Source of the DNA: Bacillota bacterium
GTDB lineage: Bacteria > Bacillota > Sulfobacillia > Symbiobacteriales > ZC4RG38
Length of the DNA: 49,075 bases
Direction: 5' to 3'
Assembly (NCBI GenBank): GCA_021890795.1
Contig: JAKKUO010000012.1
Location: 1-49,075 of the forward strand
The notes under the pieces were generated by a model. The model made no database searches, had not been told where the DNA came from, and saw only the letters and a program-made list of their open reading frames with translations. Made by a program: the position numbers and the translations under genes. Below, in pieces: positions 37,918 to 43,548 of the stretch; the first letter of the stretch is position 1, and every line of letters begins with the position of its first letter.

Positions 37918-39031
37918 TTACTCCTTCAGTTCCCCGGCCGCCCGCTTCTGCAGGTAGGCGTAGATGAAACCGTCCAGGTCGCCGTCCATGACGGCCTCGA
38001 TGTTGCCCACTTCGTAGCCGGTCCGATGGTCCTTCACCAGGGTGTAGGGCTGGAAGACGTACGAGCGGATCTGGCTGCCCCACTGGATCTCCATCTTGGG
38101 ACCCCGGAGCTGGCCGAGCTCCCGCTCCATCTGCTCCAGCTTCAGCTGGGCCAGCCGGGAGCGGAGGATTCGCATCGCGGTCTCCCGGTTCTGGTGCTGG
38201 GACCGCTCCTGCTGGCAGGTGACCACGATCCCCGTAGGCAGGTGGGTAATCCGGACCGCGGACTCCGTCTTGTTCACGTGCTGGCCGCCGGCGCCGCTGG
38301 CCCGGAAGGTGTCGATCCGAAGGTCTTCCGGCCGGATCTCGACCTCCGCGTCGTCTTCGATCTCCGGGGTGACCTCCACCGCGGCGAAACTGGTGTGCCG
38401 CCGGGCCGCAGCATCAAAGGGGGAGATCCGGACCAGCCGGTGGACCCCCATCTCCGGCCGCAAGAACCCGTAGGCGTGGGGCCCCCGGATGGCCAGAGTC
38501 GCGCTCTTGATCCCGGCTTCCTCGCCGTCCAGGCTGTCGAGAAGCTCCACCTTGTACCCCCGGCGCTCCGCCCACCGGGTGTACATCCGCAGGAGCATCG
38601 CGCACCAGTCCTGGGCCTCGGTCCCGCCGGCCCCCGCGTGGAGGGTGAGAATGGCGTTGTGGCTGTCGTACTTGCCGGTGAGCAGCTGCTCCAGCTCAAA
38701 CCGCTCGAGTTCCGTCTCCAGGGCCGCCGCCTCCCGGGCGGCCTCCGCCCCCATCTCCGGGTCGGCAGCCTCCTCCGCCAGCTCGATCAGCACCTGCAGG
38801 TCCTCGGCCCGGCGCATCAGCCCCTGCCACCTCTCCAGGGGCGTCCGGAGGCTATTGAGTTCCTTCAGCACCTGCTGGGCAGCGGTCCCATCGGTCCAGA
38901 AGTCCGGGGCTGCCGCCCGGGCCTCCAGTTCGGCGATGCGCGCCTGCCGCCGATCCCAGTCAAAGAGACCCCCTCAATTCTGCCAGTCGGGCGAGAATCC
39001 GTTCAGCACGGCGGGCGTGCTCTTCGAACAT
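37918..39031 (-). CDS. prfB: Peptide chain release factor 2, with programmed +1 frameshift
   Basis: RF2 recognises UGA and UAA and releases the finished protein. The first 23 codons (from the ATG at 39031, after GGAGGG) end at an in-frame TGA at 38962-38960. The context is AGGGGG-TCT-CTT-TGA-C: an internal Shine-Dalgarno-like AGGGGG, the slippery CTT and the UGA stop, exactly the known prfB site. After a +1 shift reading continues as DWDRRQARIAELEARAAAPD and gives 370 residues in all. The body carries GGTEAQDWCAMLLRMY, the tripeptide-type SPFDAAARRHTSFAAV region, the GGQ loop ASGAGGQHVNKTESAVRITH, and the C-terminal VRSYVFQPY-like RSYVFQPYTLVKDHRTG. Scarce RF2 thus raises its own synthesis. 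Confidence 0.96.
38957..38975 (-). promoter_or_regulatory. prfB recoding site
   Basis: On the minus strand AGGGGG lies three bases before CTTTGAC. This spacing between the stimulatory Shine-Dalgarno-like element and the slippery codon is the canonical arrangement for +1 frameshifting at the RF2 autoregulation site. Confidence 0.95.
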
Positions 39032-39285: not shown

Positions 39286-40083
39286 ATGGACGTGGGCTTT
39301 ATTGGCACGGGCAGCATGGGGGGCATGCTGGTCCGGTCCCTGGTCCGGCACGGCGCGCTGGCCCCGGAACAGGTCTGGGCCGCCAACCGCACCCCGGAAA
39401 AGCTGGAGGCGCTCAGGGCCGCGGTGCCGGGGATCCACACGGCCCCCACGGCCACCGTGAGCACCTGCCCGGTGGTCTTCCTGTGCGTGAAGCCGGGGGA
39501 TACCCGGGCCGCCCTGGCGGAGATGGAACCGGCCCTCCGGGCGGACCAGCTGCTGATCCTCCTCTCCAACCTGGTGCCCATCGCCGGGGTGGAAGAGCAG
39601 GTTCCCTGCCGGGTGGCCAAGGTGATCCCGTCCCTGACCCAGGAGGCGGGCTGCGGCATTGCCCTGGTGATGTACGGCCGCCGGGTCACCCCCGGGGACC
39701 GGCGGTGGCTGGAGGGGCTTCTGGCGGCCATCAGCCGCCCCGTGGTGATCCAGGAGTCCCAGGGACGGACCTGCGCCGACCTCACCTCCTGCGGCCCGGC
39801 CTTCCTGGCCTGCGTCCTCCAGGAACTGGCCCTGGCCGCCAGCCGTCAGCAGCCGGACCTGCCCCCGGAGCTGGCCACCGCGATGGTGCGGGAGACCGTC
39901 CTGGCCACCGCCCGGCTGCTCGAGGCGGGGATGGACTTCGACGGGATCATCCGCCGGGTCGCGGTCCCCGGTGGGGTCACCGCCGCGGGGCTCGCGGTCC
40001 TGGCGGAGCAGATCCCGGGCACCTGGGAACAGCTCCTGGCGGCGACCCGGCGCCGGGAAGAGAACGCCCCGGCCCCGGTCTAA
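39286..40083 (+). CDS. ComER-like / pyrroline-5-carboxylate reductase family protein
   Basis: A 265-residue protein of the ProC fold. The N-terminal VGFIGTGSMGGMLVRSLVRHG is the NAD(P) motif, followed by ANRTPEKLEALR, FLCVKPGDTRAAL, CRVAKVIPSLTQEAG and ADLTSCGPAFLACVLQELAL. The SCGPAF block and the VAKVIPS segment resemble late-competence protein ComER more than housekeeping ProC, whose motif is usually SGSGPAY. Whether it reduces pyrroline-5-carboxylate is uncertain. In Bacillus, comER affects sporulation and biofilm entry rather than DNA uptake. The ATG follows GGGAGG by eight bases. A terminator follows. Confidence 0.82.
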   Translation: MDVGFIGTGSMGGMLVRSLVRHGALAPEQVWAANRTPEKLEALRAAVPGIHTAPTATVSTCPVVFLCVKPGDTRAALAEMEPALRADQLLILLSNLVPIAGVEEQVPCRVAKVIPSLTQEAGCGIALVMYGRRVTPGDRRWLEGLLAAISRPVVIQESQGRTCADLTSCGPAFLACVLQELALAASRQQPDLPPELATAMVRETVLATARLLEAGMDFDGIIRRVAVPGGVTAAGLAVLAEQIPGTWEQLLAATRRREENAPAPV

Positions 40084-40159
40084 GCCGCCCCCGGCCGGTT
40101 CCACCCCCGATCGGGTCCACCCCGGTCTGACCCGCCCCTGCCCGTCCCATCCCCCGTCC

Positions 40160-40192
40160 GACCCGAGCCCAGGCTCGGGTCTTTCTCTGTTT
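40160..40192 (+). terminator. Terminator after the ComER-like gene
   Basis: GACCCGAGC (40160-40168) pairs with GCTCGGGTC (40173-40181) around CCAG, followed by TTTCTCTGTTT. It isolates the upstream gene from the selenoprotein gene. Confidence 0.88.
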
Positions 40193-40229
40193 CGCCGGAT
40201 CCCGTCGCCGCCGGGGGGTACGGGCGCGG

Positions 40230-40235
40230 TAGAAT
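40230..40235 (+). promoter_or_regulatory. Probable -10 of the selenoprotein gene
   Basis: TAGAAT lies 35 bases before the GTG start and just after the terminator. AAGGAGGAGG (40253-40262) is a very strong ribosome site, seven bases from the start. A -35 is not evident. Confidence 0.45.
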
Positions 40236-40269
40236 AGGAGGCAGAAAGTGTCAAGGAGGAGGTTCGCCC

Positions 40270-40512
40270 GTGAAGGTCCGGATCGAATTCTGCACCATGT
40301 GAAACTACTTCCCCCATGCGGCCCGGGTGGCCGGTGAACTGGTCAGCCGTTACGGTCAGGCCATCAAGGAGATCGTCCTGGTCCCGTCGGGGGGTGGCGT
40401 CTTCACCGTCGAGGTAGACGGCCGGCAGGTCTTCTCCAAGAAAGAAGTAGGCCGGTTCCCGGAAGAGGGGGAGACGGTCCGCCTGGTGGAAGAGGCCCGG
40501 GGCCAAGGCTAG
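40270..40512 (+). CDS. Rdx-family (SelW/SelT/SelH-like) selenoprotein with in-frame TGA
   Basis: An 80-residue thioredoxin-like redox protein. Reading from the GTG at 40270 (AAGGAGGAGG upstream) gives VKVRIEFCTM, then TGA at 40300-40302, then NYFPHAARVAGELVSRYGQA to a TAG at 40510-40512. Cysteine homologues of the Rdx family have YCTQCNYLPRA-like sequence at this place, so the TGA stands at the second Cys of CxxC: a CxxU motif (Cys8, Sec11). The C-terminal half (SGGGVFTVEVDGRQVFSKKE) matches the family ending. A stem-loop suitable as bacterial SECIS follows the TGA. Standard gene calling would miss the first 19 residues or start at the GTG at 40327. It requires SelA, SelB and tRNA-Sec encoded elsewhere. 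Confidence 0.9.
40315..40336 (+). promoter_or_regulatory. Candidate bacterial SECIS element
   Basis: Starting 13 bases after the TGA, CAT pairs with GTG (40315-40317 with 40334-40336). After one bulged G, CGGCC pairs with GGCCG (40319-40323 with 40329-40333). The loop CGGGT, 22-26 bases downstream of the TGA, contains the GG/GU expected for SelB binding. Distance and shape fit bacterial SECIS hairpins. Confidence 0.65.
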
Positions 40513-40610
40513 GGGCTGTGGCGGGGGGCCAATGCCCTGAGCCGAGGCCCTGGGCAAAGGTCAGGGGCTGAGGCCCAGCGCCGCGACCCAGCGGAAAACC
40601 GGCACAGACG

Positions 40611-40647
40611 GCGGAGGCGGCGGCCGCTCTACGGCCGCCGCCTCCGC
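40611..40647. other. Strong GC hairpin between the selenoprotein gene and secA
   Basis: A 15-bp perfect stem (40611-40625 with 40633-40647) and a 7-base loop lie between the convergent genes. Neither side has a T run, so intrinsic termination is uncertain; blocking of 3' decay is possible. Confidence 0.55.
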
Positions 40648-40686
40648 GCGTCCCAGGGCTTCCGCCCCGGTCGGGGGATATCGGCG

Positions 40687-43548
<2,862 letters not shown>

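Follow-up and report, generated by a model that had tools for sequence, protein, structure and literature searches.

The window analysed here, 49,075 nucleotides long, is contig C29 of a draft Bacillota genome (2.79 Mb in 103 contigs, rated 100% complete). On its forward strand, at 40270-40512, it carries a predicted SelW-like selenoprotein gene of the Rdx family, which translates as 80 codons when one in-frame TGA is read as selenocysteine (Sec). The locus has the following features.

40253..40262, + strand: Shine-Dalgarno sequence AAGGAGGAGG, 7 nt 5' of the GTG and kept in the same-genus copy L022
40270, + strand: GTG start, read from the sequence
40270..40512, + strand: SelW-like (Rdx) selenoprotein gene, predicted from its translation, from PF10262 and NF041051, and from the L022 copy with its TGA
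40291..40302, + strand: redox motif C-T-M-U (CxxU), codons TGC ACC ATG TGA
40300..40302, + strand: TGA, predicted Sec, residue 11, from conservation and the Sec machinery genes
40319..40333, + strand: candidate SECIS hairpin, CGGCC (40319-40323) with GGCCG (40329-40333), loop CGGGU (40324-40328), from covariation, RNAalifold, a second sequence set and a synonymous null
40510-40512, + strand: TAG stop, read from the sequence

The frame is open from the GTG to the TAG, with the TGA at 40300-40302 as its sole interruption, and the read-through product, VKVRIEFCTMUNYFPHAARV...GQG, has 80 residues, counting the TGA as one; the Shine-Dalgarno sequence ahead of its GTG is strong. As the initial annotation had foreseen for automatic annotation, a mechanical ORF finder that does not read through the TGA yields only a truncated ORF of 61 residues, 40327-40512. 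That this ORF, starting from the GTG at 40327, is the real gene and the upstream leader unrelated to it gains some credit from its being the only ORF of at least 60 residues in the frame (table 11) and from its still scoring as Rdx. It would, however, be missing both the CxxU active site and the beginning of the domain, and the Shine-Dalgarno sequence lies ahead of 40270 instead; moreover, residues 2-18 of the longer protein align to the family, and codons 1-21 differ only once in L022, synonymously. A gene confined to the shorter ORF is therefore very unlikely. The gene is flanked upstream by a proC-like gene on the same strand and downstream by secA on the opposite strand, names that we assume from the ORF translations. 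No match to a sigma-70-type promoter was found in 40060-40720, and Rfam and ARAGORN scans of the window found nothing. A GC-rich inverted repeat, recognized by eye at 40611-40647 (16-bp arms, 5-nt loop, no T run), lies in the gap where selW and secA converge, and L022 has one at the same place.

The read-through protein matches the Pfam Rdx family (PF10262) at 8.7e-22 over residues 2-74 (77.6 bits against a cut-off of 22.6, profile positions 1-73 of 74 covered), which bears out the proposal of one continuous Rdx protein across the TGA at 40300. With the 61-residue fragment alone the match falls to 7.4e-13, so the stretch before the TGA contributes real homology. The complete protein also scores 62.3 bits in TIGR02174 (cut-off 34.2) and 93.2 bits in NF041051, the NCBI model of SelT/SelW/SelH (seleno)proteins (cut-off 88); the 61-residue piece passes the Pfam and TIGR02174 cut-offs but, at 55.6, not that of NF041051. 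In the CTMU motif the TGA aligns with a Cys of the homologues L024, L025, L027-L031 and L102, which places it, as the initial annotation had claimed, at the second Cys of CxxC; the alignment to Rdx/SelW proteins suggested there thus returns a family match with the TGA at the redox position. Seven distinct PDB sequences match the family, the best being 3dex (6.5e-13); the bacterial Rdx structures 3dex, 2fa8, 2oka, 2obk and 2p0g belong to the same family by sequence. Eukaryotic SelW, SelT and SelH and human C17orf37 (2ljk; match at 6.2e-6) are members of the same Rdx family, and eukaryotic SelW carries CxxU. The predicted product is small and thioredoxin-like, carries a C-x-x-Sec pair and is most likely a thiol/selenol oxidoreductase, a redox role suggested by its family.

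The TGA is conserved well beyond the window. Among 151 related genomes, our own included, 50 have Rdx matches, in 54 rows; two rows begin past the site because of contig ends (G001:C385 and G075:C35), and among the 52 that cover the CxxU position, TGA is found in 51 and TGC (Cys) in one (G102). Counted per genome, 49 of the 50 with the gene have TGA and the remaining one Cys. A Fimbriimonadales MAG (L026) also has TGA at the site; Cys occupies it in homologues of the named genera Williamsia, Microlunatus, Nocardia and Cellulomonas, the Sec position being Cys (CxxC) in the actinobacterial homologues L024, L025 and L027-L031. One base change, TGC to TGA, would suffice to make a pseudogene out of an ordinary CxxC Rdx gene, or to mimic one by sequencing error, but neither a nonsense mutation nor an error accounts for a TGA at the exact codon in those 49 related genomes and in L026, with the frame conserved on both sides of it. 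Because the TGA is conserved, we consider this reading refuted and its probability close to nil.

The nearest named relative is the Bacillota MAG ZC4RG38, 95% identical. With the last three codons excluded, L022 differs from the window gene by six synonymous codon changes and two replacements, the TGA being unchanged, which makes the frame look protein-constrained. A second copy in a same-genus genome (L023; the second match in G001) was considered and rejected: L023 and L022 share a 393-nt overlap at 95% identity and map to a single region of the window, so the two ZC4RG38 entries represent one locus, present twice through overlapping contigs or strains as an assembly or strain duplicate. Tandem SelW-like TGA genes, about 0.3 kb apart, occur in two genomes of the same order (L032/L038; G005:C23 and G004:C36). 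Natural losses of the Sec codon are seen as C-V-E-R in G293 (L117) and as C-V-S-C, one residue shorter, in G102 (L083); both genomes retain SelB.

SelB exceeds its cut-off in 100 of the 151 related genomes. Rdx and SelB occur together in 49, Rdx only in 1, SelB only in 51 and neither in 50 (Fisher p 2.4e-10, with the genomes taken as independent though they are related by kinship). The Rdx-only genome, G001, has its SelB truncated at the end of a contig, and the piece is 97% identical to our own SelB over residues 279-633; selB is present in 49/49 TGA genomes, once as this contig-cut piece. A survey of 398 genomes drawn evenly from the phylum found Rdx in 31. Among the 22 new genomes with Rdx, 19 have one TGA and three (G490, G293 and G321) have none; SelB passes its cut-off in 21 of the 23 genomes searched next (the 22 and G106), the two others being G490, with a Cys-type Rdx, and G321, with a partial match.

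A selenocysteine system in this organism had been implied, and a search for its genes suggested, by the initial annotation; selA, selB, selC and selD are all found in the same genome. SelB scores 378 bits (cut-off 242), SelA 602 bits, on contig C81, where a tRNA-Sec gene (anticodon tca) lies about 0.5 kb from selA, and SelD 384 bits, with an in-frame TGA of its own within AG-U-GCK. An organism-wide reassignment of TGA to Trp, Gly or Cys has nothing in its favour beyond the in-frame TGA itself, whereas secA ends in TGA, a true stop elsewhere in this genome, and prfB, encoding release factor 2, the TGA reader, is present with a CTTTGAC frameshift site (38960-38966 of the window, − strand) after ...RGSL. 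This is the classic programmed frameshift signal through which release factor 2 commonly regulates its own synthesis. A dedicated tRNA-Sec, SelA, SelB and SelD are encoded as well, and reassignment, refuted by these genes, has a vanishingly small probability.

The hairpin was examined in two alignments. For the first (A1), 56 TGA matches gave 49 distinct 60-nt stretches, to which L078 was added, L045 being swapped for the identical row of the window (n=50); the first 60 nt align without gaps. A1 has a 5-bp hairpin, columns 20-24 with 30-34, corresponding to 40319-40323 with 40329-40333, in which 98.0% of cells are paired and three of the five pairs show double-sided changes. Its covariation score, 0.280, was reached by 0/500 shuffles and fell to 0.127 or less when the partner was shifted by 1-3 columns. 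Left free to predict, RNAalifold returned for A1 exactly the hairpin 40319-40333. The second set (A2) comprises 18 of the 19 further TGA genomes of the phylum survey (G244 left out) plus the window row; here 94.7% of cells pair, double changes occur at four of the five pairs, and here too 0/500 shuffles attain the score. Random synonymous codons would complete the five-pair stem in 7.8 of the 50 TGA genes; the full stem is seen in 45/50, and in 0/8 Cys (TGC) homologues. One covarying pair joins two third codon positions, being GCG...GCC in our own lineage and GCC...GCG in most others.

The hairpin also has the shape of a bacterial SECIS element. The rules given in the legend to Figure 2 of PMC13188914 are a loop of 3-9 nt, an upper stem of 4-16 bp and a spacing of 16-37 nt; the same source gives a G at the first or second position of the loop, with G or U as the usual next base, and a minimum free energy (MFE) of at most -7.5 kcal/mol. 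Within these published rules fall the 5-nt loop, the 5 bp, the start of the loop 21 nt after the UGA and the energies of -7.5 kcal/mol (15 nt) and -8.9 kcal/mol (18 nt) of 40319-40333, and the loop reads NG[G/U]NN in 50/50 sequences. Thus, of the hairpin for SelB proposed in the initial annotation, the covarying element 40319-40333 is upheld, and it lies inside the range then named, 40303-40345; the range as a whole is not, its fold giving z +0.85, with 162/200 shuffles as good. Indeed, the MFE of four ranges of the window was no better than that of shuffles (z +0.02 to +0.85), and synonymous shuffling of 58 sequences gave no signal (mean z -0.29 for the 50 TGA genes vs -0.92 for the 8 Cys genes), so that stability by itself is no evidence for the hairpin; both tests were set aside as uninformative in GC-rich coding sequence. 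In the ranges 40297-40360 and 40285-40375 a longer, competing hairpin is preferred, which would disrupt the conserved one. As the loop of this longer hairpin, too, has a G close to its beginning and no more than 37 nt from the UGA, it is from the relatives that we infer which hairpin SelB would use in this species.

The first base of codon +7 pairs with the middle base of codon +10 in 50/50 TGA genes (G-C in 31, A-U in 19), a pair that is broken in 3/19 of A2. The SECIS hairpin could therefore dictate protein sequence, the residues at +7 and +10 (Ala or Val with Ala or Thr, Thr with Val) being set by RNA pairing instead of by what the protein does; we give this an even chance. The Cys-type homologues, free of the hairpin, fail to keep the pairing.

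Taken together, the locus is almost certainly a single-gene SelW-like selenoprotein whose TGA would be read as Sec, with Sec insertion and SelB binding predicted from the sequence. The ribosome would start at GTG 40270 and reach the UGA at codon 11; SelB carrying Sec-tRNA(Sec) would bind the short hairpin 40319-40333, and Sec would be inserted at the UGA in competition with release factor 2. After Sec insertion, translation would continue to the UAG at 40510.

Two variations on the family came to light in other genomes. In the SelW-like gene L078 (G106:C166:8188-8406), both Cys positions of the motif are TGA codons (Y-U-T-S-U-G). The gene possibly encodes a UxxU or diselenide SelW, and the double TGA may also be a base error. 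UxxU is absent from the other genomes of the family of G106, where G056 and G118 have CxxU, G102 has Cys and two have no Rdx; in the literature found for selenoprotein W together with UxxU, two papers describe SelW-like proteins as CxxU. Five genomes of family f58 (L112, L114, L115, L116 and L118) encode an Rdx-DUF2703 fusion (DUF2703 at 5.5e-38 in the one scanned); the fusion protein matches the NCBIfam 'DF family (seleno)protein' model below its cut-off. The fusion frames end in C-T-U-S, C-T-U-K, C-U-S or G-U-S, followed by a stop, and in 5/5 a hairpin with the loop AGUU(U) lies beyond the stop, 18 nt after the TGA as counted on the printed sequences; this hairpin also resembles an intrinsic terminator. 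Possibly, the fusions combine CxxU with a second, penultimate Sec served by a candidate SECIS 3' of the stop codon; alternatively, their tails may be tandem stops and a plain terminator. The tail of a standalone DUF2703 paralogue (L129, in G354) reads S-C-U-N-stop; an AGUUU hairpin resembling that of the fusions follows at 19 nt and has no T run. The fusion-related gene of G293 (L117), with Arg for the first Sec, ends KCCGK, and no such hairpin was found there. A literature search on DUF2703 together with selenoprotein found no paper.

Bacteria have been known to carry SelW-like CxxU selenoproteins since at least 2005 (PMC1088965), and a 2006 paper reports them from Symbiobacterium thermophilum and Clostridia (PMC1794560). 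In 2008 SelW-like ranked among the two selenoproteins found most widely in marine samples (PMC2398784), and the family is counted among the prokaryotic selenoproteins of highest abundance there. Two reviews, from 2022 (PMC9312934) and 2026 (PMC13188914), give its motif as CxxU, and the later one calls the functions of such proteins largely uncharacterized. Set against these descriptions, the window gene is a further member of this long-known bacterial family, and no new kind of biology, since each testable defining feature of the family is found in it: as in the bacterial SelW-like CxxU selenoproteins described (PF10262), there is a common Rdx domain, a single Sec in CxxU and a bacterial SECIS after the UGA. 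It differs from them, as they are described, only in the species and in the exact short SECIS sequence. The Cys homologues L024, L025 and L027-L031 have CxxC without the hairpin, whereas the window gene has CxxU with it. The candidate SECIS of the window lies within the coding region, in contrast to the eukaryotic SECIS elements, which are described as located in the 3' UTR.

The SelW-like gene is a clean example of a gene shortened by plain ORF calling, and the covarying set of 50 sequences could serve for a family-specific SECIS model. Moreover, the locus documents a selenium-using trait, as predicted here, in a poorly characterised GC-rich lineage of the Bacillota.
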